From Acidobacteriota bacterium (GTDB lineage Bacteria; Acidobacteriota; Aminicenantia; S016-38), in the NCBI GenBank assembly GCA_015486055.1, contig WFSJ01000035.1, positions 1 through 52,137 of the forward strand: DNA of 52,137 bases. Reading direction: 5' to 3'. The translations under genes were made by a program, and so were the position numbers. Below the pieces are notes generated by a model, which was given only the letters and a program-made list of their open reading frames with translations, was not told the origin of the DNA and ran no database searches. Shown one piece after another: positions 26,638 to 44,944 of this stretch; the first letter of the stretch is position 1; each line of letters begins with the position of its first letter.

Positions 26638-26669
26638 TTGACTGAAATTTCCTTTCTTCTTAGTATAAT
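26638..26669 (+). promoter_or_regulatory. Promoter abutting the fhaA-like start (leaderless candidate)
   Basis: TTGACT lies at 26638-26643 and a perfect TATAAT at 26664-26669. The spacing of 20 is long; TAGTAT at 26661-26666 gives 17. The GTG start codons at 26673 and 26676 are 4 and 7 bases after the -10, and no ribosome site can fit. Confidence 0.5.
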
Positions 26670-26672
26670 TAT

Positions 26673-28253
26673 GTGGTGTTATTCAAAAGGAGAGAAAGAG
26701 AATTTCATGGAAGATTAGAGACTGGGAGCAAATACAGGCCTAATTTTAACTTGAAGCTCGGAAAAAATTTTCCTCAGCAAATTATCCTTGGACAGAGAAG
26801 TGCAAAACTTGCAGAATACCTCATAAATGAATTTTTGAGATACGGTTTTTACCATCTTGGTTTTATACTTATTTTCAAACAGAAAGATTTCAGCGTCTGG
26901 GCAGCCCAACTGGAGTTCATTAAGAAAAGGGTAATAGAGGAAATGGGGGAAATTTCAAGAAGGCTTGACACTAGTATAGAAACAAATGAATTCTCGGTCA
27001 GTATTTATACCGAAGCCGCTGTAAGGAGCATATTTAAAAAAGAGGGAATAGAACTGAGTTCAACTTACGATTTTGAGAAAGGGGAGTTTGTCCTTCTCTG
27101 CCTACCATTTCTTTATAGGGATTCCAAGAAGGAAATTGTCAAGGTAGAAATAGAACTTGGGGATAGGAGGATAAGTTCATCTTTCTTTGATGGACAGCGA
27201 GAGTTTGTGATCGGAGATGAATGGTTCTTCAATGCATGGCTCCCCGAGCTTTTTAATATGAAGTTTAGCATTCCTCTTAAATTTGCCTTCAAAGATGAAC
27301 CAAAGCTTATTAATATTCAGGAAGTTGGCAATCATTTTGAAGCAGTATTACAGGGAGTTGCCGTAAATGTTCTGAAAAGGAAAGAAAGAAGAAACTGGAT
27401 ATACAAGGTTTTATACAGAAGTTCAGGGGGTGAGCTTAAATACAGAATTTCCTTCAGGATGCCTGATGAGGCGAGCACTGTATTTACAGATGAGCTTTTA
27501 GAGAAACCTTTCTTTGATACGAATCCATCCATTTATCAAGATTTTTCTCTGAAGGAGGAAGACCTTACCTTTTCCTATGTCCTGATTCCAAGGCCAATGG
27601 GTCCCATAAGCTCTTTTGATACCTTTATTGACCCAAATGGGGAATTTCTCAAGGACCAGTGCCCCAGTTGTTTAGAGATTCATGTTGATAGGGATAATAT
27701 GAAAATTGGGAATGAGGAGTTCAAGCATTTTAGTGAAATTTCAGTGGAATTTCCTGTAGAGGGAGTGTTATATAAAATTTCTGTTGATAAATTTTGTGAA
27801 AAGCTATGGAAGCTTGGTAATACCTATTTCCTCATGGAAATAGAAGTTCCTCAGAAGAAGGGAATATACCTGAATGGGAATTATGCTCTCATAGGTAGAG
27901 ATGAGAGGAATAGTTTCAGACTTCCCTTTTCCGAAAGGCTGGAAGATTTTAGAAATATACATTCCTCAAGGTTTCATGCGCTTTTATTAAAAAATGATGA
28001 TGGATTACATTCGATAAATCTATCAACTCATTTCAGTATCTATATTTTTAAGGGTAAACAGGTTAAGATTATTCCTCCAATGAAAGCTGGCGAGAGATTC
28101 TATTCAAATATTGGAGTTATTGATTTTGGAAACGCAAATCTCTCCATTGCTTTAGAAAAGCTCTCCCTTGGTGGGGAATCTCCTTCAAGTTCTCTAATTT
28201 TCCCCGGGGATATTCTGCTCATAGGAAACTCGGTCTTCAGGGTTTCTGATTGA
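26673..28253 (+). CDS. FhaA-like protein: DUF3662-type N terminus and degenerate FHA domain
   Basis: A 526-residue cytoplasmic-looking protein. The N terminus (LFKRREREFHGRLETG, up to about 120) resembles the DUF3662 domain that opens mycobacterial FhaA. The middle part (about 120-370) is beta-rich and unassigned. The C-terminal part looks like an FHA fold: LIGRDERNSFRLP at about 404, SSRFHALLL at about 432 (matching the GR and SxxH core) and the final IFPGDILLIGNSVFRV. FHA domains bind phosphothreonine peptides. The start must be GTG at 26673 or 26676, because the frame offers no ATG nearby. It leads an operon with the FHA-SEDS polymerase and PBP genes, which supports a role in controlling wall synthesis. 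Sequence similarity is weak and should be confirmed. Confidence 0.7.
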   Translation: MVLFKRREREFHGRLETGSKYRPNFNLKLGKNFPQQIILGQRSAKLAEYLINEFLRYGFYHLGFILIFKQKDFSVWAAQLEFIKKRVIEEMGEISRRLDTSIETNEFSVSIYTEAAVRSIFKKEGIELSSTYDFEKGEFVLLCLPFLYRDSKKEIVKVEIELGDRRISSSFFDGQREFVIGDEWFFNAWLPELFNMKFSIPLKFAFKDEPKLINIQEVGNHFEAVLQGVAVNVLKRKERRNWIYKVLYRSSGGELKYRISFRMPDEASTVFTDELLEKPFFDTNPSIYQDFSLKEEDLTFSYVLIPRPMGPISSFDTFIDPNGEFLKDQCPSCLEIHVDRDNMKIGNEEFKHFSEISVEFPVEGVLYKISVDKFCEKLWKLGNTYFLMEIEVPQKKGIYLNGNYALIGRDERNSFRLPFSERLEDFRNIHSSRFHALLLKNDDGLHSINLSTHFSIYIFKGKQVKIIPPMKAGERFYSNIGVIDFGNANLSIALEKLSLGGESPSSSLIFPGDILLIGNSVFRVSD

Positions 28254-28254
28254 A

Positions 28255-30720
28255 ATGGCTTCCTTTTTCTTTTATCTATTCTTTGCTTTTTGGAGTGCCT
28301 TTGTCATTTTAGCTTTCCTGAATTCCATATTTCCTGGCAGAAGAAAAACCATCGCGCTTCCAGGCCTTGTTTTATTGTCCTTTACTTTTCTGTTTTTTTC
28401 CTTGAAATATTACTCCAAAGAAAAATATCCGCTTTGGGTGAAGTCATACAGCCTGAGCACCAGTAGGAAAGAGCTTGTAATAGGGAATCGGAAAGATGGC
28501 TCAGATATTACTATATTTAATCCGAATTCCGTTTCCCATCACCTCAGGATAGGCTTTGGTAAAGATACATTTTTTATTGAGAATCTCAGTAATAAAAGGA
28601 GGGTTGAATTTGATGGGGAAGGACTTGACATATTAAGTCTCAAGGAAAATGTAAGTGTAGAAGTTAAAGGGGCAAAGATTAAGGTCTTTAAAACTTTTTC
28701 TTCTTTTCCTCTCTCAAAAAAGATCAAAGTTTCTATAGATGGAAAAGTGATAGAGAAAAATCTTTTACTGCATTCTCCATTTTCCTTTTCCTCAGGGCCT
28801 AATAAATTTTCCATGTTTTATTCGCTCCCAAAATTTCTCATATTTGACCTATACATAATAGAAATTATCCTGCTTCTTTTATTTCTTTCCTTACTGATTT
28901 ATTTTTTCCTTAAAGGAGAAATCCCTTACTATTTCTTCCTGATATACCTTTTAGCCCTTCCTGGCTTTTTAGGTCTATATCCTTTCTGGATTTCAATTTT
29001 AATTTCCATTTTCCCGCTTTTCAGGAAGTTAAATCCTGGGAAAATGACTCTCTCTTTACTGCTTGTATTTAGTTTTGTTTCCCCCCTTCTCAGGGAAGGG
29101 GATTTCAAGCTCAAGGGGTACGGAAAAAATGGAAGGATTTCTTTCAGAAAAGAATATGCATATGGAAAACATCTTTTGATTCTCGGATTTACACCTTACA
29201 GTATTTCGGTTAAAAAAGGGAAGATAAAACTTGAACCTTTATCTGTTGAGGGAATAAAATCCGATGTTAAAAACATATATTCCGGGAATGATTTCCTGAT
29301 AAGCAAGGGAAATCTTTATCTTCCGTTTCCAAGGGAATTTTCGGCAATAAAATCCATAGGGAATGAGATTAAGATAAACGGGAAGAGAGGGGGAAGCCTT
29401 ATCCTTTCCTCAAGCACCCCTGAGTTTCTTAAGAAAGGATTTAAATTTTGCAGCTTAACGGCCCTTTCCTTCATCATAGTTCTGGGTTTATTGTGGATAT
29501 TTTCATCACCTCCTCCTTCGGAAATTACAATAATTTCAGTTCTTTTCTTTATGCTGTTTTTATCACTTCTATTTTCTCTTTCCCTGTCCCTTTTTAATCC
29601 GAATTTTTACTTTAGTTTTTCCTCTTATGCCAGGTATGGATTGTTGCCCGGTCTGCTACTTGTAATTTTTTCATTCTCAGGTGGAATTTTTAGATTCATA
29701 AAGTCCTCAAGGGACTTTCTAATAAAGGGTCTTAATCTGAAGCAAAAATTTAGATTCACTTTAATGGAGTTAAGGGAGACTGGCGAGGGCATAAGCCTTT
29801 TTGAAATATTGAATAGAAAAATTTCCGGGCAAATACTCTGGGTCGATCTTCTTTTCTTTCTATCCCTCCTTATAATTTCCCTTCAATACTTTTTTGGAGC
29901 TGAAACAGGGATAAAAACTTCGGGATTCTCATTTCAGTTGTTTGAAGCAGGAAAAATACTTCTTGCAGTATATCTTGCTGACTGGTTATTTAGGGCCGAA
30001 GAGAATAAGTTCTTCTTCCCATTTTGGCTTCCCTATATTTTGGTCTTTATACCTTTCCTTTTTCTTATTTTCACCATGAGCGATTTTTCTCCCCTTGCTG
30101 TTTTTTCTCCTTTGCTCCTCGTTCATTTTGTCCTCCTTAAGATAGATGTAAAGAAAAAGATAAGGGCTTTTTTGGTATTTTTCGTTGCCTCCATATTATC
30201 CATTTTCTTATCAATTCATTTTCTATTCCCGAAAAGTGTTGCTCTGAGGATTTTGTCCTGGGTATATCCTGGAAAGTTTCCCGATTATTCAGAACAATTT
30301 CTCAGGGCATTCTGGCTTTTTAAACAGGGGGGAAGCCTTGGGAATTTCCCTGATTCTTTCAGCCTTGCTGGTTTTGTCCCCCTCCTTCAGTTTGATTTTC
30401 CGCTCTCCCTTTTCTCTGCGAGTTTCGGTCTTCTGGGCCTTATTCTTCTTTTTTTGACACTCTTAATTCCTTCCTTAATCTTATTAATAAAGGGAGGGGA
30501 ATTGCTTAATTCCTCTTACGAGATGAGATGGAATTTTTATGCACTTTTCTTTATAGGCATTATTTTTCTTTCCCAGTGCTCAATCCCGCTTTTAATATTA
30601 ACAGGTCTTCTGCCAGTGATGGGACAACCTTTCCCATTCCTTTCAAAGGCCAATTCAAATCTCCTTCTTTTTGCTATCCCATATTTCCTCCTCAATATAT
30701 ATTTAATGAGGAAAAGATGA
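28255..30720 (+). CDS. SEDS (RodA/FtsW) glycan polymerase with N-terminal FHA-like domain
   Basis: An 821-residue polytopic membrane protein, about twice the usual RodA length. Two helices (about 2-24, 33-51) precede an FHA-like domain (about 70-140; ELVIGNRKDGSDITIFNPNS, then SVSHHLRIGF). More helices surround a soluble beta region (about 285-400). The C-terminal half carries the SEDS signatures in divergent form: FQLFEAGKILLAVYLADWL, FWLFKQGGSLGNF, FDFPLSLFSASFGLLGLIL (with the loop Asp matching the catalytic region of RodA) and LLPVMGQPFPFLSKANSN. SEDS proteins polymerise lipid II together with a class B PBP, and the next gene encodes one. The stop overlaps its start (ATGA). The canonical SYGGSS near the end is lost, so activity is uncertain. 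Confidence 0.8.
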   Translation: MASFFFYLFFAFWSAFVILAFLNSIFPGRRKTIALPGLVLLSFTFLFFSLKYYSKEKYPLWVKSYSLSTSRKELVIGNRKDGSDITIFNPNSVSHHLRIGFGKDTFFIENLSNKRRVEFDGEGLDILSLKENVSVEVKGAKIKVFKTFSSFPLSKKIKVSIDGKVIEKNLLLHSPFSFSSGPNKFSMFYSLPKFLIFDLYIIEIILLLLFLSLLIYFFLKGEIPYYFFLIYLLALPGFLGLYPFWISILISIFPLFRKLNPGKMTLSLLLVFSFVSPLLREGDFKLKGYGKNGRISFRKEYAYGKHLLILGFTPYSISVKKGKIKLEPLSVEGIKSDVKNIYSGNDFLISKGNLYLPFPREFSAIKSIGNEIKINGKRGGSLILSSSTPEFLKKGFKFCSLTALSFIIVLGLLWIFSSPPPSEITIISVLFFMLFLSLLFSLSLSLFNPNFYFSFSSYARYGLLPGLLLVIFSFSGGIFRFIKSSRDFLIKGLNLKQKFRFTLMELRETGEGISLFEILNRKISGQILWVDLLFFLSLLIISLQYFFGAETGIKTSGFSFQLFEAGKILLAVYLADWLFRAEENKFFFPFWLPYILVFIPFLFLIFTMSDFSPLAVFSPLLLVHFVLLKIDVKKKIRAFLVFFVASILSIFLSIHFLFPKSVALRILSWVYPGKFPDYSEQFLRAFWLFKQGGSLGNFPDSFSLAGFVPLLQFDFPLSLFSASFGLLGLILLFLTLLIPSLILLIKGGELLNSSYEMRWNFYALFFIGIIFLSQCSIPLLILTGLLPVMGQPFPFLSKANSNLLLFAIPYFLLNIYLMRKR

Positions 30721-33700
30721 TAAGAAAATATCGTATAGCTTTCTCAATATTGGTTTTTCTCTTTCTTGTTCTCCCATTTGTGAGGCATGCAGTTCAGCTT
30801 GAAAAATCCCCTGATTCTTCATGCAAAATGTCCGCCATCAAGAATGGATTCAAGATCAAGTGGTCTGGTATAAAATTTTATGTGACCGGAGGGGGAAGGC
30901 TTTCTGAGCCCATGTGTTTTAAAAAAGAGGGAAAAATCTTCTCAATTGTCAGAGTTCCCAACCCGTATGAAAGGATTTTCAAAAGACCCATTCACGAGCT
31001 TCAGGGACACGAATGGAAAATAGGAAAAAGGGATAAGAACACGATAATTGAAGTTTCCGAAAGGGTATTGAATAAGCTTAAGTGCAGGGATGAGATTCTG
31101 AAAATAAAGAGGAAAGGGAAAGGAATAGTAGTCGAGTCATGCCTTCCGGCTGTTTTAGTTAATGAATGCAGAGCAAAGAAAATTCCTCCGGATGTTCAAT
31201 GCCTGCTGAGGGAAGGCGAGTCTATTTATCTGGGGAAAATTGGCATGAAATTATCCCTCAGAAAAGAAAGGGGATTACTCCCGGGGAAGATTGGGAAATT
31301 AACCAGACTTTTCCCTTTTGAAAACCTTATACTTGAAGTGGACCAGATTACCAACGAAAAACCTGTTCTTGCAAGCCTTAAAACACAGGAGGGGATAATC
31401 TATCCTTTAAAGGAAGGGGAAAATTCATTTTTGCCAGTTAACAACTTATTCCCTCTCCTTCCTCCCTCTGATTATCAGAGTGGAAGAGATATATTTTTGG
31501 AGAAACTCATAGATGAAGGGGATTATTTTATAAATAAAGATGGTTTTTATGTACCTAAAATTAAAGGGAATTCAGCTAAGATGGCAAAAAAACTTGGTCA
31601 TTGGAACTATTTTAAGAAACAGCTGAATGTTTTAAATAAAGCTCTTGGGGAAGGGGGGATTTATTCAAGACTTCCCTGCTTTAGAGTGAGCATTGAGATG
31701 AAGCAAAGTAAGAAAGAGCCAAAGTTCGGGGAAGGAATGAAATGGTTTTATAAAGCATTGCCAGCCGTGGGATGGAAAACTTCAAAAAAATTTACGGGAT
31801 GGATTGAAGCCGAGAAAAAAGGCAATTTGATCTGCGGGGAGAAGTGGTCTCCTCATTTTTCCGGGGTAAGGAAAAGGTATTTCAAAAGCCTTTTCACCCT
31901 TGAGTCTAAGCCAGAGAAAGTTTCCCTGAAGGTTTCTCCCAATGCCTTTCTTTTCATAAATGGACTTCCCACTGGAAGCGGGCAGGACGCTTTAAAATCT
32001 TTGAAAATCGGCAAAAATATTATATCTGCGAGAGTTGAAACTAAGGGAATGGGAAAGCCAAATGGAATTTTAAAAATAGGAAATGAGCTTATCATTAAAA
32101 TTTACAGAAGAACTATCAGAAAGTTTCCTAACATAAAGAGAAAAGGTGGTGTAATCTCCGACAGGGATGGCTTCTCGCTTCCAAGACTTGAAGTTTTAGA
32201 TGGGAATACGATCTTCAGGGATGGTGATGAAATAGAATTGCCTGCGCATCTGGTTTTTACGAACAGAAAAACTTTTAATTTTTTAATAGGCAGGAGGAAA
32301 TATTCAGTAAATATTTACGACAGGAATTTGAGGACAAGGTATTTCACTTATATTAGGGGGAATCCCCATTTTAAATTTGGAGACCTCATAGTTACAGATG
32401 GAAAAATCCTCGGAATTTTTAGGCGTAAAAAGGCGAATTTAAAAATTAAAATTAAAGGAGACTATTTTTTTAAAATTAAAAATGAGAAGCTTTTTATAAA
32501 GAGCAAAAATGAGGAGAGAAAAGTAGAGGATGGAGAGACATTTAAATTAGAGAGTCTTATCTTCAGATTCGTAAAAAACAGAAGGGGAGAAATTTCCTTC
32601 CCGTGTCATGGGCTTAAAGGATGGAAAAGGTGTTATTCTTCCATATACAGTGGGCTTTCTTCAATAATAGGAATGAGCGGAACTGCTGCTCGGGGGATAG
32701 AATGGAGCTATTCTAAACTTCTTTCAAATCCAGGGGCAGAGATTAAACTTACAATAGATGATGATCTTCAGGAATTAACTAATGATATTCTTGAGGAAGA
32801 AATACTCAAACTGAAGAGATCAGAGGAGGGGAGGACAAAATCCCTGAGGCTCAGAATCGAAAAGTATCATAGGGAATTGGAAAGACTGAGGAGCTCTTAT
32901 AAAATGGTAAGGAAAGGGAAAACTGCTGCGAGAATTTTCTCCCTTGAGAAGGATCTTAAGAAATTGGATTTAAAATACAAAAAGCTCAAGAATCCGTTCT
33001 ATGAGGGGGCAATTTTGCTTATGAATCAGGATGGGGAAATAATTTCAGCAGCTACTTACCCATATGTCCCTTTGAGAAGGAAAAGAATTAATAGAGCCCT
33101 AAAAAAAGGTGGAGGATTGGGTCTTTTGAACAGATGCTGGATGGAAACCTACAATCCAGGTTCAACATTCAAGCTTGTTGATTTTATAGCCTTTCTTGAG
33201 AGGGAAAATCCCTATGTTAAGAAGATTCTTAGAGGTTTCCCGTTTTATGGGAAAGGGTCTGAAAATCTTAGAGGGAAAAAACTGCTCAATGGGGAAAAAA
33301 TTAATTTTGACCTCAGAAACTTTAGGAGAGAGAAGATAAAGTATAGAAGATGCAGCATTGAGGAGGCCTTTGCCAATTCCTATAATGTATATTTCGCTTA
33401 TACAATCCTTCACAGTTATATTCCTGCACTTAATGGGAGGGTTTTGGCGTTTTTTCCTGTCAGCCTTTTCAGGAAAAGATTTCCCCTTCTGGATTTGGCA
33501 GAGAAACTCGGGTTCAATAGAAGATATGAACTTTCGGGAGGTGCACCAAAGCCAATTTTTACAGCTAAATCGGTCTTTCCATTGAATGCCTATAAAAGGA
33601 GCGAGATTGCCCACTATTCCATAGGTCAAGCAGGTCTAAGGGCAACTCCATTGCAGCTTGCTCTGATAGCTCTTTCAGTTTATAGAAAAGGGGTTTTTGT

Positions 33701-34082
33701 TGAGCCTATTCTCATAAAGGAGATGAAAACCAGGGGTGTGAACATAAAAATCAGGAACAAAAAAACCAGGGTTTTTTCCAGAAGGACCGCATATAAACTT
33801 GAGAGAGCAATGAATTTAGTCGTTCGGGAAGGAACAGCCTCTTCGGTGTTTAAGAATTGGCCCCTCAGGGCGAAGATTTTCGCAAAGACAGGGACAGCGG
33901 AAACATCACTTTACAAAGATAATTCCATTTTTGTCGGTTTTTTCAAGCTAAATAGGGGAAAGGCCGTTATATTTGCTGTTGTCCTTCCTCGCTCAGGAAT
34001 TGGAGGGAAAATCGCAGCGCCTATCACAAAAAGACTTATAGAATCCTACATTTACTATAGGGAAAGGAAAAGAGAATTTTAA
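30717..34082 (+). CDS. Giant class B penicillin-binding protein (transpeptidase)
   Basis: A 1121-residue protein with one N-terminal membrane helix (about 6-24) and a long extracytoplasmic part. The transpeptidase domain is at the C terminus: SxxK is Ser816-Lys819 in YNPGSTFKLV, SxN is Ser888-Asn890 in NSYNVYF, and KTG is Lys1057-Gly1059 in FAKTGTAET. TIDDDLQ at about 679 marks the usual entry to the catalytic region. A charged coiled-coil-like insert of about 70 residues (about 694-764) then splits it from GAILLMNQDGEIISAATYP. The first 650 residues match no PBP pedestal I know and contain beta-rich stretches ending in DGDEIEL- or DGETFKL-type phrases. The ATG at 30717 overlaps the SEDS stop; the frame extends further upstream but inside that gene. 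It should cross-link glycan made by the SEDS partner. Confidence 0.87.
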   Translation: MIRKYRIAFSILVFLFLVLPFVRHAVQLEKSPDSSCKMSAIKNGFKIKWSGIKFYVTGGGRLSEPMCFKKEGKIFSIVRVPNPYERIFKRPIHELQGHEWKIGKRDKNTIIEVSERVLNKLKCRDEILKIKRKGKGIVVESCLPAVLVNECRAKKIPPDVQCLLREGESIYLGKIGMKLSLRKERGLLPGKIGKLTRLFPFENLILEVDQITNEKPVLASLKTQEGIIYPLKEGENSFLPVNNLFPLLPPSDYQSGRDIFLEKLIDEGDYFINKDGFYVPKIKGNSAKMAKKLGHWNYFKKQLNVLNKALGEGGIYSRLPCFRVSIEMKQSKKEPKFGEGMKWFYKALPAVGWKTSKKFTGWIEAEKKGNLICGEKWSPHFSGVRKRYFKSLFTLESKPEKVSLKVSPNAFLFINGLPTGSGQDALKSLKIGKNIISARVETKGMGKPNGILKIGNELIIKIYRRTIRKFPNIKRKGGVISDRDGFSLPRLEVLDGNTIFRDGDEIELPAHLVFTNRKTFNFLIGRRKYSVNIYDRNLRTRYFTYIRGNPHFKFGDLIVTDGKILGIFRRKKANLKIKIKGDYFFKIKNEKLFIKSKNEERKVEDGETFKLESLIFRFVKNRRGEISFPCHGLKGWKRCYSSIYSGLSSIIGMSGTAARGIEWSYSKLLSNPGAEIKLTIDDDLQELTNDILEEEILKLKRSEEGRTKSLRLRIEKYHRELERLRSSYKMVRKGKTAARIFSLEKDLKKLDLKYKKLKNPFYEGAILLMNQDGEIISAATYPYVPLRRKRINRALKKGGGLGLLNRCWMETYNPGSTFKLVDFIAFLERENPYVKKILRGFPFYGKGSENLRGKKLLNGEKINFDLRNFRREKIKYRRCSIEEAFANSYNVYFAYTILHSYIPALNGRVLAFFPVSLFRKRFPLLDLAEKLGFNRRYELSGGAPKPIFTAKSVFPLNAYKRSEIAHYSIGQAGLRATPLQLALIALSVYRKGVFVEPILIKEMKTRGVNIKIRNKKTRVFSRRTAYKLERAMNLVVREGTASSVFKNWPLRAKIFAKTGTAETSLYKDNSIFVGFFKLNRGKAVIFAVVLPRSGIGGKIAAPITKRLIESYIYYRERKREF

Positions 34083-38230: not shown

Positions 38231-39925
38231 CTATTGCTCTGTTTCCTTTTTCAGTATATAGATTTTCTTTTTAATTTTTTCATTTGGACTTATGAAAATC
38301 TCATCTATTATGGTTTTGTAACCGCTTTTCTTTAAAGTTATTTTATGCTTTCCTTCTCCTAATTTTATATTGTATTTGGGAGAAGAACCGAGAAGCTTTC
38401 CATCTATATAAATATCGCACCAGGGAGTGCAATTTATCATATCTACTATCCCGAAAAGCGGGAATTTTCTCTCTACCCTTCTCCTTTTTCCTCCTGCTTT
38501 TATGGTGATTTTTTTCTTTTCTTCAGGGTATCCTTTAGCCTTGAATCCTATGATATACTTTCCTGGAGGAAGTTCTATTTCTCTCAGTTTTCCTGGATAT
38601 ACTTTACCAAAGGATTTTCCATTTATTGTAACTTCTGATTCAAGATTGGAGGAGATAACCACAGAACCAGTAGTTGGGGGTGGAGTTGGCTTTTCAGGGG
38701 TTGCTTTCTCTTTCTCATTTTTTTTTGCTTTCTCCTTAATTTCCTTCTTTTTCTGTGTCTTGCTCCGCTGATGCTTCGGAGTGATAATATATTTGTTCTC
38801 CCCCCTCTCACTCGCAAAATAGGAACAATAGGCTGTCTGGACTGCATTATTTATGGGATTCCTGAAGAAAATATATGAGAGGATTAGCGCTCCCAAGATG
38901 AAAATAAAAGTGATTGTCCCAGCAGAAGACCCCCTATACTTCGGGAGAATTGTGGACTCAATTTTCAACTTCTTTACATCTCCCAGCATTTCGTCTGCAG
39001 TTCTATATCTATTTTTCGGTTTCTTTTCAGTTGCTTTTTTTATTATGCTTTCAAGGGAAGGAGAAATATTGGGATTGATTCTTGAAGGAGAGGGTAAAGG
39101 TTCCCTCACATGTTTCCAGAGAACTTGAAGAGGAGTATCTGCCCGAAAGGGAAGAACTCCTGTAGCCATCTCAAAAAGAGTTATCCCATAGGAATAGATA
39201 TCCGAGGATGTTGTTATTTTTTCCCCCTTGGCCTGTTCAGGGGAAAGATAATGCGGAGTCCCGAGCATTTCCCCTGTTCTTGTAAGATGGGATTTTCCCT
39301 CTATCCTTTTGGCAAGTCCAAAATCTGCAAGAATAGCTTTGTTAGTTCCATCCTCGATTATTATGTTTGCGGGTTTTATATCCCTGTGAATTATACCTTT
39401 GGTGTGCATATAATTCAGGGCGGAAAGGATTCCCTCTGAAATAAATTTTATTTTTTCTATGGGCAGAGGAGCACTTTGCTTTATAATATCCTTCAGAGTT
39501 TTCCCTTTTATATATTTCATAATAATATAAGCAGTTTCCTCATAGAATCCGAGGTCATATATTGGGACTATATTTGGATGCTCAAGTTCTGCATATAATC
39601 TGGCTTCCCTCTTAAATCTCTCCATCATCTCGGAAAAGCCCTGGGTAAGATCAGGAGACAGAATTTTCAGAGCGCATTCCCTTCCAACGAGCTTGTCCTT
39701 TATCAGGAAAACCTCAGAAAATCCTCCCTTACCTAAGAGACCTATTAACTCATACTTATCACTGAATTTTTCCATGATGGGTTCAAGCTCTTTCAGAACC
39801 ACGCTCTTGGGAATTTCCCTTACCTTTACAGTCTTTATTTCCTCTTCTTTTATTATATGCCCGCAGAAGGGACAAACTTCGGAATCATCAGGGATGCTCC
39901 TTCCACAATTTGGACATAACTTCAT
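38231..39925 (-). CDS. Ser/Thr protein kinase with zinc ribbon and two PEGA domains
   Basis: A 564-residue protein. It starts with a zinc ribbon (Cys4, 7, 18, 21) followed by a Hanks-type kinase domain (about 58-320). Kinase residues are the Gly loop GKGGFS (65-70), Lys87 in ALKIL, HRDIKPAN (180-187), DFG (201-203), SPE (228-230) and the DIYSYGITLFEMATG helix. All catalytic residues are intact. One membrane helix follows (about 337-353), then a charged Lys/Pro linker and two PEGA domains (about 420-485 and 492-560; YIIGFKAKGYPEEKK, CDIYIDGKLLGSSP). The extracytoplasmic PEGA modules resemble the PASTA-for-sensing layout of wall-linked kinases, with PEGA replacing PASTA. Its likely targets include partners of the FHA-type proteins at 26.7-30.7 kb (inference). 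No ribosome site precedes the ATG. Confidence 0.92.
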   Translation of the reverse strand: MKLCPNCGRSIPDDSEVCPFCGHIIKEEEIKTVKVREIPKSVVLKELEPIMEKFSDKYELIGLLGKGGFSEVFLIKDKLVGRECALKILSPDLTQGFSEMMERFKREARLYAELEHPNIVPIYDLGFYEETAYIIMKYIKGKTLKDIIKQSAPLPIEKIKFISEGILSALNYMHTKGIIHRDIKPANIIIEDGTNKAILADFGLAKRIEGKSHLTRTGEMLGTPHYLSPEQAKGEKITTSSDIYSYGITLFEMATGVLPFRADTPLQVLWKHVREPLPSPSRINPNISPSLESIIKKATEKKPKNRYRTADEMLGDVKKLKIESTILPKYRGSSAGTITFIFILGALILSYIFFRNPINNAVQTAYCSYFASERGENKYIITPKHQRSKTQKKKEIKEKAKKNEKEKATPEKPTPPPTTGSVVISSNLESEVTINGKSFGKVYPGKLREIELPPGKYIIGFKAKGYPEEKKKITIKAGGKRRRVERKFPLFGIVDMINCTPWCDIYIDGKLLGSSPKYNIKLGEGKHKITLKKSGYKTIIDEIFISPNEKIKKKIYILKKETEQ

Positions 39926-40110: not shown

Positions 40111-40734
40111 ATGGTTTTTGACAAACTCTTAAAGTATGAGAATTTTCAGTTTGAGATAGATAAAAGAGCGGTTTACTCACTTTTGGGATATAGAAAAGGG
40201 GAAACCACTATCTCGAAGGAAATGGCTACTCTTCTTGAGAATTCTTTTAAAGAAGCAATTGAGCTTGTTGATACAAAAGGAGTTTATATTGTTAGAAGGA
40301 TAAAGGAGAAGAAAAATGGAATAAGCCTCTTTAATTCAGAGATTGTATTGAGAGGAAAATCAATGGAAAAACTCCTTTATGGCTCCTTTGGAGTTATTTT
40401 TATGGCTGTAACCATTGGACCTGAACTTGAAAGAAAAATCTCAGAGGATATGGAAAATGGAAGCTTTGAAAGGGCTATTGTCTTTGATGTTATAGGTTCA
40501 GAAACAGTTGAAGCTGTGGCTAACTCCTTTAACAGTTACCTTCTTATTCAGGCAAGGCAGATTAAAAACTCACTGACAAGAAGGTTCAGCCCGGGCTACG
40601 GAGATCTTCCCCTTGAATTTCAGAGGGAAATTTACAGGGAGCTTTCTCTTTCTCGGCTTGGAATTGAAATAAATGAGAAAAATATTCTTTTCCCTTATAA
40701 GACAATAACCGCGATAATCGGGATAGAGAGATGA
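40111..40734 (+). CDS. Stand-alone methionine synthase activation domain protein
   Basis: A 207-residue protein matching the C-terminal activation (SAM-binding) domain of MetH: TIGPELERKISEDMENGS, the GSETVEAVANSF helix and above all TRRFSPGYGDLPLEFQREIY with ILFPYKTITAIIGI. In E. coli this domain uses SAM to remethylate oxidised cobalamin bound to MetH. Here it is a separate gene overlapping metH by four bases, the same split known in Thermotoga. It should work in trans on the next gene's product. Confidence 0.88.
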   Translation: MVFDKLLKYENFQFEIDKRAVYSLLGYRKGETTISKEMATLLENSFKEAIELVDTKGVYIVRRIKEKKNGISLFNSEIVLRGKSMEKLLYGSFGVIFMAVTIGPELERKISEDMENGSFERAIVFDVIGSETVEAVANSFNSYLLIQARQIKNSLTRRFSPGYGDLPLEFQREIYRELSLSRLGIEINEKNILFPYKTITAIIGIER

Positions 40735-43139
40735 TTTCCGATAAATTAAAAGAGAGAGTTTTAATCCTTGATGGTGCTATGGGGACTGAGATTATAAGAA
40801 GGGCTGGAAAAAGTTTTAACTTTCCAGAGATTCTTAACCTTGAGGCGAAGGATTTAATTCTTGAGATACATAGAGATTACATTGAAGCAGGCGCAGATAT
40901 AATAGAGACAAATAGCTTTGGCGCAAACAGAATAAAGCTCTCGGAATATGGTGCGGAAAGCAGGGTTGAGGAATTGAATATCGCTGCGGTTGAGATAGCA
41001 AAAGAAGCAAGGAAAGGGAAAGAAGTTCTGATCGCTGGTTCCATGGGTCCTGTTGGGAAATTAATAAATCCTCTCGGTGAACTTTCAGAGAGCGATGTAT
41101 ATAAAACCTATGCCGAACAGGCAGAAGCTCTTGAAAAAGGGGGAGCTGACCTTCTTCTCATTGAGACCCAAATAGATATTCTTGAGGCAAAAATTGCTCT
41201 TATAGCCTCAAAGGAAAGCACTTCTCTTCCAGTCGCCGTTTCAATATCCTATCCTCTTGAGGGAGGAAGGACAGTAACAGGTTCTGATCCTGAAACTGCA
41301 TCAATAGCCTTTTCCTCAACTGATGCGGATGTTTTCGGCCTAAACTGTGGGGGAGCCCCTGAAGATTTTGAGGAATTTATTGGAAAAATCCTGCTTCACA
41401 GCAGCAAACCTCTCATTGCCTATGCAAATGCTGGGGTCCCCGAGAAAAAGGATGATAGGGTTTTCTATCCTCTTGGACCTGAAGAATATGCAAAGCATGC
41501 ATGGAAATTTTATGAACTTGGGGCTTCTATAATAGGTGGATGTTGCGGAACTACCCCTTCTCACATAAGGTTGATTTCTGAGAGGCTAAGGGGAAGAAAG
41601 CCTTTGAAGAAAAAGGAAGAGAGGCATTTCTTTTCTGCCTCGAGCAGAAATTCATCTCTTATTGTAGGAAACTCCTTTCCTTTCAGGATTATAGGGGAAA
41701 ATGTAAATCCTTTTGGGAGAAAGAAGCTTAACCAGGAACTTAAGGAAGGGAAATTAGAGCTTGTAAGGGAATATGCAAGAAGACAGGAAAAAGCAGGGGC
41801 AGATGCGCTTGATATAAATCTTGGGAAGAAGGGGGAAAGCTCACCTGAATTTTTCTCCTCTGCAATAAGAGAACTTCAGAGCACGACGAAACTTCCCCTA
41901 TTCCTTGACAACAGCAATTTAACTTCGCTTGAGCTTGCACTTTTGTCTTACGCAGGAAAAGCAGTTATAAATTCTGTAAACGGTGAGAGGAACTCCTATG
42001 AGAGCTTTTTTCCCCTTGCTAATAAGTATGGCGCCTCTGTTATTCTTCTTGCCATGGATGAGGAGGGAATTCCTGAGAAAGCAAAGGATAGGGTAAGGAT
42101 AATAGAGAGACTTTACAAAATGGCTCTTGATTTCGGGCTCCATGAAGAGGACATTCTTGCAGACCCTGTTGTCCTTACAATTTCTACTTCTCAGCAAAAT
42201 GCCATAGAAACTCTAAAAGCTATAGAGATGATTAAATCCATTGGAATCCACACGGTCGTTGGGCTTTCAAACCTTTCATTTGGACTTCCTCGAAGGAAGC
42301 TTCTTAACTCCTCATTTTTACCTATGGCCATGGAAAGAGGGCTTGACTCTGCAATTTTAAATCCTCTTGATGAGAATCTTTGTTCTGTTATAAAAGCGTG
42401 TGATGCTATCCTTGCAAGGGATAGAGGAATGCGTTTTTACATAGAGAAATTTGGGAAGGAATTAGAAATAGAAGTTGAAGAGAAAAGGGATTTTAAATCC
42501 AATGCCCCGGAAGATGAGCTTTTTTACGCTATTATTGAAGGAGAGGAGAAGAAGGCAGAAGAGTTGACAAAAGTCTTAATTAAAAAGGGGGAAAATGGTT
42601 TTGATATTCTTGAAAAGATTCTATCCCCTGCTTTAAAAAAGGTAGGTGAATATTACGAGAAAAAAATATATTTTCTTCCACAACTCATTCTTTCTGCTGA
42701 GGCTATGGAGAAGGCTTCAAAAGTTCTTGCTCCTTTTCTCGGGACAGAGGGAAAAGCAAAAAGGAAACTCAAGATTGTTATTGCAACTGTAAAAGGAGAT
42801 CTTCATGATATAGGAAAGAATATAGCATCACTTGTTCTGCGAAATTACGGATATGAGGTCTTGGACCTCGGGAAAAATACCGGAGCAGAAGAAATTGTGA
42901 AAACTGCCTGCAGCCAGAAGGCTGATTTCATAGGTGTTTCCTCTCTTATGACAACTACAATGGATGAAATAGAAAAAGTGGTAAAGCTAAGGGACTCAAT
43001 GGCTCCTGAAATAAAGGTGGTAGTTGGAGGAGCTGCTGTAACTCCATCTTTTGCAAGGGAAATAGGTGCTGATGCTTACTGTAAAGATGCAATGGATGCA
43101 ATCAGGAAAATAGAGAAGCTTTCAGGGGAGAGCAAATGA
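40731..43139 (+). CDS. metH: Cobalamin-dependent methionine synthase without activation domain
   Basis: An 802-residue protein that methylates homocysteine from methyltetrahydrofolate through cobalamin. It has the homocysteine domain (about 1-290; LILDGAMGTEIIRR, FGLNCGGAPEDF and GGCCGTTPSHIRLI supply the zinc cysteines) and the folate (pterin) domain (about 310-570; FRIIGENVNPFGRKK, DALDINLG). The cap and B12 domain follow (about 590-802), with the cobalt-ligand histidine His692 in GDLHDIGKNI and VSSLMTTTMDEIEKVV and VVVGGAAVT. It stops where the reactivation domain would begin; that part is the upstream gene. The ATGA overlaps on both sides indicate coupled translation. Confidence 0.95.
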   Translation: MISDKLKERVLILDGAMGTEIIRRAGKSFNFPEILNLEAKDLILEIHRDYIEAGADIIETNSFGANRIKLSEYGAESRVEELNIAAVEIAKEARKGKEVLIAGSMGPVGKLINPLGELSESDVYKTYAEQAEALEKGGADLLLIETQIDILEAKIALIASKESTSLPVAVSISYPLEGGRTVTGSDPETASIAFSSTDADVFGLNCGGAPEDFEEFIGKILLHSSKPLIAYANAGVPEKKDDRVFYPLGPEEYAKHAWKFYELGASIIGGCCGTTPSHIRLISERLRGRKPLKKKEERHFFSASSRNSSLIVGNSFPFRIIGENVNPFGRKKLNQELKEGKLELVREYARRQEKAGADALDINLGKKGESSPEFFSSAIRELQSTTKLPLFLDNSNLTSLELALLSYAGKAVINSVNGERNSYESFFPLANKYGASVILLAMDEEGIPEKAKDRVRIIERLYKMALDFGLHEEDILADPVVLTISTSQQNAIETLKAIEMIKSIGIHTVVGLSNLSFGLPRRKLLNSSFLPMAMERGLDSAILNPLDENLCSVIKACDAILARDRGMRFYIEKFGKELEIEVEEKRDFKSNAPEDELFYAIIEGEEKKAEELTKVLIKKGENGFDILEKILSPALKKVGEYYEKKIYFLPQLILSAEAMEKASKVLAPFLGTEGKAKRKLKIVIATVKGDLHDIGKNIASLVLRNYGYEVLDLGKNTGAEEIVKTACSQKADFIGVSSLMTTTMDEIEKVVKLRDSMAPEIKVVVGGAAVTPSFAREIGADAYCKDAMDAIRKIEKLSGESK

Positions 43140-44944
43140 AATTCAGGGATTTCTTTGACAGTAAAGATTTCATTCTTTTTGACGGGGCCATTGGGACTCA
43201 GATATATGCAAAAGGAGTCCCAAAAGGTCATTGCTATGATGAACTAAATATATCAATGCCTGAAATCCTGATGGAAATTCACGGGGAATATATTGAGGCA
43301 GGAGCAGAGGTCATGACAACCAACACCTTTGGAGCTAACAGATTTATACTTGGTGAATATTATGACCTTGCCGCAAAGACAAGGGAGATAAACTATTATG
43401 GGGCAAGAATAGCAAAAAGGGTTGCAAGAGACAGGGCTTTTGTTGCAGGTTCCATAGGGCCTGTATCCAGACCTCTTGACAGGGAGAGAAGGCTTAGGGA
43501 TGAGGAGATAGCCGAAATCATGAGGGAACAAATAGAGTCTCTTCTTGAAGGTGGAGTGGACCTTATAATCTTTGAGACATTTTCCTGTCTGGAGGAACTT
43601 CTAATAGGGATTAATGTAGCAAGAAAGGTCAAGGATGACCTGTTTATAATAGCTGAGATGTCCTTTCCGAACAGTGGACTCACTATTTTTGGAAGAAACC
43701 CCTATGAGGCTGGATTGAAACTTAGCTCTACAGAAGCGGATGTTATCGGCACAAACTGTGGAGCGGGCCCGAAAAATGTTTACGAAGCAGTCAGGAAAAT
43801 GGCTTCAGTTACAGAAAAAGAACTTTCTGCAATGCCAAATGCAGGACTTGCCCGTTTCATTCAGGGAAAGTTTTACTATCCTTATAATCCTGAATACTTT
43901 GCAAAATACGGGAGGAGGTTTCTGAACTCGGGGGTGAAAGTTACAGGAGGATGTTGCGGAACCACCCCTGAACATATAAGACTTTTAAGCCGGAGTATTG
44001 AAGGGCTAAAGCCAAAAAAGAGAAAGAGGAAAAGAGTTGAAATCGTAGAGAGAAGGAATGTAAGAAAGGAGGAGAAGATAGAATCAAAACTCAGGGAAAA
44101 ACTTCGCACAGGAAAAGTTTTATCTATTGAGGTTGACCCGCCAAAGGACCCTGATTTTGAAAAATTTCTCAGGAGTATAGAGCCCTACTCAAAATATATA
44201 GATGCAATAAACGTCTCGGACAGCCCAATGGCAAGACCGAGGATGTCTTCAATATCTACTGGAAAACTCCTTAAAGATTCCCTTGGAAAAGAGATAATTG
44301 TTCATTATACATGCAGGGACAGAAATATACTTGGAATTCAATCAGACCTTCTCGGGGCCTCTGCCTTGGGTCTTGAAAACTTCCTTGCCATAGGAGGAGA
44401 TCCCCCGTCAATCGGGGACTATCCATTTGCAACAGGAGTTTATGACCTGACGTCAGAGGGACTCGTGGAGCTTATGTCGTCTTTGAATCATGGAGTTGAC
44501 CTCCTTGGAAGCCCGGTGGGAAAACAGACGCAGTTTTTTATAGGAATTGGGATGGGAGCCGGAGGAGACAGGGAAAAGGAACTCCAGAGAGTTGAGGCAA
44601 AGATAGCCAAAGGTGCCCACTTTGTCATAACACAACCAATCTTCAACATAGATGAAATTAGCGTAAGGATAGAGAAAATAAAAGGTAAAGGGATTGCTGT
44701 TATTGTCAGCATAATCATACTTTTCTCATTTAAAAATGCTGAATATCTGCATTATGAAGTTCCAGGAATTGCAATTCCTGAAAAATATCTAAAAAGAATG
44801 GAAGGGAAAAGGGGTAGAGAAGCAGAAAAGGAAGGGGTTTCGATAGCAAGGGAACTTCTCGCAGAGATTGAAGGCATAGCGGATGGAATTCTTCTTATTA
44901 CTCCCCCTGGAAAATTCTATCTTGTAGAGGAAATTCTTTCATAA
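43136..44944 (+). CDS. Homocysteine S-methyltransferase / methylenetetrahydrofolate reductase fusion
   Basis: A 602-residue bifunctional protein like Bacillus YitJ. The N-terminal half (about 1-290) is a homocysteine methyltransferase domain with ILFDGAIGTQIYAKG, VIGTNCGAGP and VTGGCCGTTPEHIRLL (zinc cysteines). After a Lys/Arg-rich linker (about 290-320) comes MTHFR (about 325-602): VLSIEVDPPKDPDFEKFL, VHYTCRDRNILGIQSDL, FLAIGGDPPSIGDYPFATGV, AKGAHFVITQPIFN. The reductase part should supply methyltetrahydrofolate to MetH. The methyltransferase part closely resembles the N terminus of the preceding gene and lacks folate and B12 modules, so its methyl donor is unclear. It ends the operon. Confidence 0.93.
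   Translation: MKFRDFFDSKDFILFDGAIGTQIYAKGVPKGHCYDELNISMPEILMEIHGEYIEAGAEVMTTNTFGANRFILGEYYDLAAKTREINYYGARIAKRVARDRAFVAGSIGPVSRPLDRERRLRDEEIAEIMREQIESLLEGGVDLIIFETFSCLEELLIGINVARKVKDDLFIIAEMSFPNSGLTIFGRNPYEAGLKLSSTEADVIGTNCGAGPKNVYEAVRKMASVTEKELSAMPNAGLARFIQGKFYYPYNPEYFAKYGRRFLNSGVKVTGGCCGTTPEHIRLLSRSIEGLKPKKRKRKRVEIVERRNVRKEEKIESKLREKLRTGKVLSIEVDPPKDPDFEKFLRSIEPYSKYIDAINVSDSPMARPRMSSISTGKLLKDSLGKEIIVHYTCRDRNILGIQSDLLGASALGLENFLAIGGDPPSIGDYPFATGVYDLTSEGLVELMSSLNHGVDLLGSPVGKQTQFFIGIGMGAGGDREKELQRVEAKIAKGAHFVITQPIFNIDEISVRIEKIKGKGIAVIVSIIILFSFKNAEYLHYEVPGIAIPEKYLKRMEGKRGREAEKEGVSIARELLAEIEGIADGILLITPPGKFYLVEEILS

Follow-up and report, generated by a model that had tools for sequence, protein, structure and literature searches.

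A predicted third SEDS–class B PBP synthase with FHA-like modules and a probable FHA partner protein in Aminicenantia

The window (the whole analysed stretch of 52,137 nucleotides, contig C35 of a 1.86-Mb host assembly with 98.9% completeness) contained three co-directional genes, designated P1, P2, and P3, whose products are predicted to constitute a third SEDS–class B PBP synthase of this organism rather than its RodA/PbpA pair. The favoured reading, held with reasonable though not high confidence, was that the trio would be a third peptidoglycan synthase with phosphate-blind FHA folds outside the membrane and with a phosphothreonine (pThr)-competent P1 gating it from the inside. The sequence-only reading had described this locus as an actinobacterial-type, kinase-linked cell-wall module; as a whole this interpretation was partly supported. 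The features were as follows:

26673..28253, plus strand: P1, 526-aa FHA protein (GTG start; synteny in relatives)
27828..28250, plus strand: probable C-terminal FHA domain of P1, aa ~386-526 (invariant residues; hhalign; PF00498 in homologues)
28255..30720, plus strand: P2, 821-aa SEDS polymerase with a large N-terminal extension (PF01098)
28426..28710, plus strand: FHA domain of P2, aa 58-152, predicted extracytoplasmic, pThr residues lost (hhalign)
29092..29430, plus strand: second soluble domain of P2, aa ~280-392, predicted extracytoplasmic
29515..30717, plus strand: SEDS core of P2, aa 421-821 (FtsW alignment)
30717..34082, plus strand: P3, 1,121-aa class B PBP (corrected start) with one N-terminal membrane helix (PF00905, TIGR03423)
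30840..31292, plus strand: predicted periplasmic FHA-like region of P3, aa ~42-192 (model, Foldseek, and hhalign)
32718..34052, plus strand: transpeptidase domain of P3 (PF00905, TIGR03423, and motifs)
38231-39925, minus strand: window kinase, zinc-ribbon/kinase/PEGA protein, intact (Pfam E 1.5e-55)

The ORF list confirmed the three genes at these coordinates, and they abutted or overlapped as had been claimed: P1 ended at 28253 and P2 started at 28255, while the P2 stop codon TGA (30718-30720) overlapped the likely P3 start codon ATG at 30717 (ATGA). The listed P3 ORF start at 30528 was too early, and the start was set at 30717 because homologue alignments began at this Met, the ATGA overlap was found there, and GAGG was located upstream at 30708-30711. 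TTGACT and TATAAT with a long spacing of 20 were seen just 5′ of the P1 GTG (26638-26676); since they abutted this GTG and a clear Shine-Dalgarno sequence was not seen, the operon may give a leaderless mRNA. The trio was flanked, by Pfam, by a divergent glycosyltransferase-9 gene upstream and by three convergent genes downstream, namely a GAF/PAS/HD-GYP gene, a FIST gene, and the zinc-ribbon/kinase/PEGA gene. Further along the window (40731-44944) were two neighbouring fused one-carbon genes: (i) homocysteine methyltransferase–pterin–B12 (802 aa) and (ii) homocysteine methyltransferase–MTHFR (602 aa).

The assignment of P2 as a SEDS polymerase was borne out by PF01098 at aa 521-810 (E 2.4e-13, 50.3 bits versus the curated cut-off of 26.4), and P2 aligned to the solved FtsW chain 25hr_A (also 8p1u). 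The catalytic Asp of SEDS proteins was kept: D714 (30394-30396), invariant in 7/7 sequences, aligned with the HTDF Asp of FtsW in extracellular loop 4. P2 had no Trp in the loop that precedes QPSE(L)xK (MRWIG aligned to IKTSG), and no P2 homologue had a Trp at that position near the SEDS active site; P2 thus lacks the Trp found beside the RodA active site, and its activity could therefore be altered.

P3 likewise proved to be the class B PBP that had been proposed, a transpeptidase with SxxK, SxN, and KTG motifs and without a GT51 domain. It matched PF00905 (E 2.3e-22) and TIGR03423 (PBP2; E 8.3e-31 over aa 668-1112), its transpeptidase domain was closest to PBP2, and all motifs were kept: STFK (33162-33173), SYN (33378-33386), and KTG (33885-33893, as KTGTA). 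The synthase reading follows from this SEDS/class B PBP identity, the kept catalytic motifs, the adjacency of the two genes, and their fusion in relatives (see below): P2 would polymerise glycan strands, and P3 would cross-link them.

PF01098 detected three SEDS proteins in the window genome, and the same number in well-assembled members of its family. The other two in the window genome were located in (i) a complete dcw cluster (mraZ, rsmH, FtsI, MurE, MurF, MurD, FtsW, MurC, FtsQ, FtsA, and FtsZ, named by sequence and order) and (ii) an elongasome cluster on contig C39 with PBP2, MreD, MreC, and MreB. With complete FtsW/FtsI and RodA/PBP2/MreBCD sets elsewhere in the genome, the trio would therefore represent an additional, third SEDS–class B PBP pair. 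In a small tree with no more than three canonical sequences, whose branches were long, all FHA-SEDS proteins, including those of Myxococcota type (see below), formed a clade apart from the FtsW and RodA of this genome (support 100/99). As with RodA–PBP2, FtsW–FtsI, and SpoVE–SpoVD, the trio had its SEDS gene next to a class B PBP gene, the SEDS catalytic Asp, the SxxK/SxN/KTG motifs, and a transpeptidase domain closest to PBP2. Unlike canonical SEDS proteins, P2 carried ~400 extra N-terminal residues, with the FHA domain, the second soluble domain, and approximately seven extra helices; P3 had ~600 residues before the transpeptidase domain, and the pair differed further from the canonical ones as a third copy whose SEDS member had no active-site Trp.

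SpoVE/SpoVD is a third SEDS–PBP pair in spore formers. By an alternative reading, P2 and P3 would be a diverged pair that has given up bulk peptidoglycan synthesis and instead serves another polymer, a special structure, or a special condition. The occurrence of the pair beside a complete divisome and elongasome, the low similarity of P2 to canonical SEDS proteins (PF01098 score of 54 bits versus ~250 for the other two SEDS proteins of the genome), the lost Trp, and the very large extracytoplasmic additions would all fit, but the retention of the catalytic Asp and every transpeptidase motif, together with the PBP2-like transpeptidase domain, makes this alternative rather unlikely, and peptidoglycan synthesis is preferred.

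An FHA-like domain on the SEDS protein, proposed from short motifs, was substantiated at profile level. Pfam did not detect FHA in P2 of the window itself, and PF00498 matched six of the 10 P2 homologues, being above its cut-off at the same place in L045 (E 4.3e-9) and L053 (E 3.6e-5). The region from the 10 homologues, compared with eight FHA domains encoded in the window genome, gave an hhalign probability of 97.8% (E 8.8e-13, 78 columns; column-shuffled controls <1%). A profile of the SEDS N terminus recovered ordinary FHA proteins from genomes of the class, mainly via positions ~63-150, and among them were two Pfam FHA matches of the window genome. P2 homologues also matched PF16697 (YscD-type FHA). 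On these profile comparisons the FHA fold of P2 is regarded as secure, while hhalign of the second soluble domain against FHA gave no signal.

The implied reading of phosphothreonine by this domain was not upheld. The Arg of the GR motif was replaced by Asn or Ser in 10/10 homologues (GN in P2) and the Ser of SxxH by Val, Asp, or Ala in 10/10 (VxxH in P2), with the His kept, by which the pThr pocket is judged to be lost. The domain is most likely periplasmic: the positively charged loops TM1-2, TM3-4, and TM5-6 placed it outside the cytoplasm, and so did the helix count back from the FtsW-anchored SEDS core. The positive-inside rule, together with a count of two helices for aa 223-258, is the basis of this topology. 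Without the pThr-binding Arg and Ser, and with its likely periplasmic location, the P2 FHA domain would therefore be a poor pThr reader of a cytoplasmic kinase. Were it cytoplasmic instead, it could read pThr or proteins in an unusual manner beside P1; FHA domains neighbouring the membrane are normally cytoplasmic (as in the YscD type, the PF16697 matches of the P2 homologues being of this kind), and the topology was derived from sequence rules only, but the charged loops, the helix count, and the loss of Arg and Ser in every homologue all speak against it, and we consider it improbable. The periplasmic placement, which is preferred, also separates P2 from the degenerate FHA folds of YscD/PrgH: the P2 domain resembled these in having no pThr pocket and in the PF16697 matches of its homologues, whereas it is predicted to be periplasmic and to form part of a polysaccharide polymerase.

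P3 also appeared to begin with one or more FHA-like folds on the periplasmic side, a feature that the sequence-only reading had not included. In an AlphaFold model of the P3 N terminus (652 aa; pLDDT of the whole model, 66), fragment residues ~60-170 had pLDDT 85-92, and FHA was among the most probable Foldseek matches of this model (APLF 5w7w and Ki67 2aff, both probability 0.99; MDC1, 0.93), with E-values of only 0.03-0.1 for a long, multi-domain query. In the PBP of a second Aminicenantia family, the segment directly after the membrane helix matched the second half of FHA (hhalign ~90%, E ~1e-6; shuffled controls <1.3%), while hhalign of the later part of the P3 N terminus for FHA gave no signal. 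Cys 67, 123, 142, and 151 of P3 were invariant in the first family, that of the window genome, and four such residues fit a periplasmic N terminus.

Inspection of the P1 sequence revealed no obvious signal peptide or membrane segment, because of which P1 is taken to be a soluble, cytoplasmic protein. Its claimed likeness to FhaA stood only for the C-terminal end, where an FHA domain is probable. G408, R409, S432, R433, H435, and N449 were invariant in 11/11 homologues, some only 18-20% identical, and the pThr signature (GR, SxxH, and N) was thereby retained, which makes P1 likely to be competent for pThr. The C terminus matched the FHA profile of its own genome (hhalign 73.8%, E 2.9e-5), and the PDB FHA-like protein 3hx1 aligned across the FHA motifs (E 0.03). 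Window P1 itself had no Pfam match; PF00498 matched 5/11 homologues at E<=1 (best E 0.0017), and in the one inspected (L041) FHA lay at 402-457 (E 0.0019, 19.0 bits, below the cut-off of 20.7). A direct phmmer search of P1 against PDB returned no match, and neither did Foldseek return an FHA match for the P1 model (pLDDT 73, pTM 0.48), in which 409-433 was among the weakest stretches (pLDDT <50). The FHA calls made from short motifs in the first two proteins thus held, P2 by profile and P1 as a well-supported assignment below the Pfam cut-off, and the two FHA folds do occur, in a bacterium of Gram-negative type, beside a SEDS protein and a class B PBP. The fold comparison of P1 with DUF3662 (FhaA_N) turned out differently: Pfam gave no DUF3662 match at E<=1 in any of the 11 homologues, and on this absence from every family member the actinobacterial FhaA label was rejected as unsupported. 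The P1 N terminus had no PDB match, and hhalign of the middle of P1 for FHA gave no signal.

The kinase noted 4 kb beyond the trio was intact by Pfam, but its membership in the module did not hold: it lay on the minus strand with the HD-GYP and FIST genes in between, and its closest homologues were located elsewhere in every relative checked (in G004, the trio was at C6:146-153 kb and the kinase homologues were at C6:26 kb and on C3). With approximately nine kinase-domain loci in the 1.86-Mb genome, the chance of one lying within ~6 kb of the trio was ~6% by our own arithmetic. A different kinase was the fourth operon gene in three relatives (G003, G005, and G006), overlapping the PBP stop codon and encoding a kinase–FGE-sulfatase membrane protein; the proteins encoded at L042:13371-15182, L040:3151-4929, and L043:3639-5507 each combined a kinase domain, a single membrane helix, and an exported SUMF1-like (FGE-sulfatase) domain. 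In L053, a distant copy, the trio was followed by a small membrane protein and then by a kinase–TPR–TonB_C protein (L053:17401-20181). The operonic kinases of G003/G005/G006 and L053 scored 97-104 bits against each other but only 40-55 bits against the window kinase, and none contained PASTA domains. Both types had a degenerate Gly loop and DFD or DFE in place of DFG (DFD in the kinase–FGE-sulfatase type), and the L053 kinase apparently had Arg at the kinase Lys position (read by eye); their kinase activity is therefore uncertain, and the L053 protein is possibly an envelope-linked pseudokinase. G004 lacked the operonic kinase–FGE-sulfatase gene, and the window genome had neither an operonic kinase nor an orthologue of that of the relatives. 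Conservation of the trio with a kinase was accordingly found in part of the lineages: a kinase would belong to the module in some of them and would be dispensable or replaced in others, including the window genome.

The actinobacterial fhaA–fhaB–pstP–rodA–pbpA–pknA–pknB operon has been described (PMC11898655), and the trio resembled it in that FHA proteins adjoined SEDS and class B PBP genes, with a kinase adjacent in some relatives. The claim that the same set was present here failed: the trio had no FhaA N-terminal domain, separate FhaB, pstP, or PASTA kinase, neither of the latter two being found among its neighbours, and canonical RodA/PBP2 were encoded elsewhere. A PP2C phosphatase was instead found on contig C54 of this genome (L075, 1-2772, minus strand), in a cluster of a PknB-type kinase cut by the contig end, the PP2C gene, a small FHA protein (also GN, not GR), and a zinc-ribbon FHA protein, which looked like the ordinary kinase/phosphatase/FHA set of the genome. 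If the trio were a homologous counterpart of the actinobacterial operon, elongation would be kinase-controlled through pThr–FHA contacts on the SEDS protein. This reading has in its favour that both loci combine an FHA protein with SEDS and class B PBP proteins and that a kinase is the fourth gene in some relatives, but P1 lacks the FhaA N-terminal domain; the FHA domain fused to the SEDS protein is predicted to lie across the membrane and is pThr-blind; the trio is not the elongation pair, RodA/PBP2/MreBCD being present elsewhere; PP2C and ordinary FHA genes sit with the PknB-type kinase on C54; the place of the window kinase is not conserved; and the operonic kinases lack PASTA. Such homology is thus very improbable, and a separate, third synthase is preferred.

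Conservation of the trio in relatives, all Candidatus Aminicenantes MAGs at close range, extended to a second Aminicenantia family and to Myxococcota-type MAGs. By the SEDS N-terminal profile, FHA-SEDS proteins (full-length or contig-end fragments) were present in all seven family genomes (7/7) and, within the second family, in two genera, 12/142 genomes of the class in total, and the trio was syntenic in the family genomes wherever the contig extended far enough. A single-sequence scan of contigs with P2 gave no match, while an alignment-based scan found relatives. A phylum-wide scan with the P1 profile recovered only genomes of the family itself (4/396), which underestimates the spread because the SEDS N-terminal profile found remote members. 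Three MAGs labelled Myxococcota or 'proteobacterium' (L055, L057, and L058) carried FHA-like SEDS proteins; in one Myxococcota-type MAG a giant PBP adjoined it, and in two the upstream gene pair matched the P1 family over 412 columns with 92% probability. The PBP of L057 was ~1,400 aa long, and after it came a protein with FG-GAP/MopE repeats, also giant.

Three complete loci of genus g25 (L051/L099, L054, and L056/L098) had SEDS and PBP fused in a single ORF of 1,938-2,117 aa, and a fourth fused locus (L045) was cut by the contig end; split SEDS/PBP copies were also present in two of the g25 genomes with fusions. A 107-aa ORF 3′ of the fused gene (L051:16554-16877) resembled the PBP C terminus and is perhaps a remnant of a duplicated or once separate PBP copy. 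Natural single-ORF SEDS–PBP fusions have been mentioned (PMC10449877), and hence fusion alone is not new; engineered SEDS–class B PBP fusions are functional (PMC10449877, PMC6207328). The fusions of the relatives are like these, whereas the genes are separate in the window and the relatives' fusions also carry FHA-fold modules. A description of the FHA-SEDS trio was not found in the open-access literature searched, a limited collection.

The topology, the docking role, and the kinase input are what we infer. The predicted periplasmic FHA folds of P2 and P3 would act in docking or assembly independently of phosphate, keeping polymerase and transpeptidase together or linking the pair to a partner in the envelope, while the P1 FHA domain may sense threonine phosphorylation by a cellular Ser/Thr kinase and may gate or recruit the synthase from the cytoplasmic side; in some relatives, the operonic transmembrane kinase with its exported domain would be the natural candidate input. 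A broader proposition, advanced tentatively, is that the trio typifies a third class of SEDS–class B PBP machine (Aminicenantia plus Myxococcota-type), joined via periplasmic, phosphate-blind FHA modules and linked to Ser/Thr kinase signalling by P1.

SEDS–class B PBP pairs are core wall synthases and beta-lactam targets. For the question of how such pairs are held together and activated, the locus and its relatives offer natural variants: apparently external FHA folds, which in the polymerase have lost the pThr pocket; an adjoining invariant pThr-type reader; and polymerase and cross-linker as a single chain. They would also allow Ser/Thr-kinase input to wall synthesis to be tested in bacteria of Gram-negative type, in a case that does not appear to descend from the actinobacterial operon.
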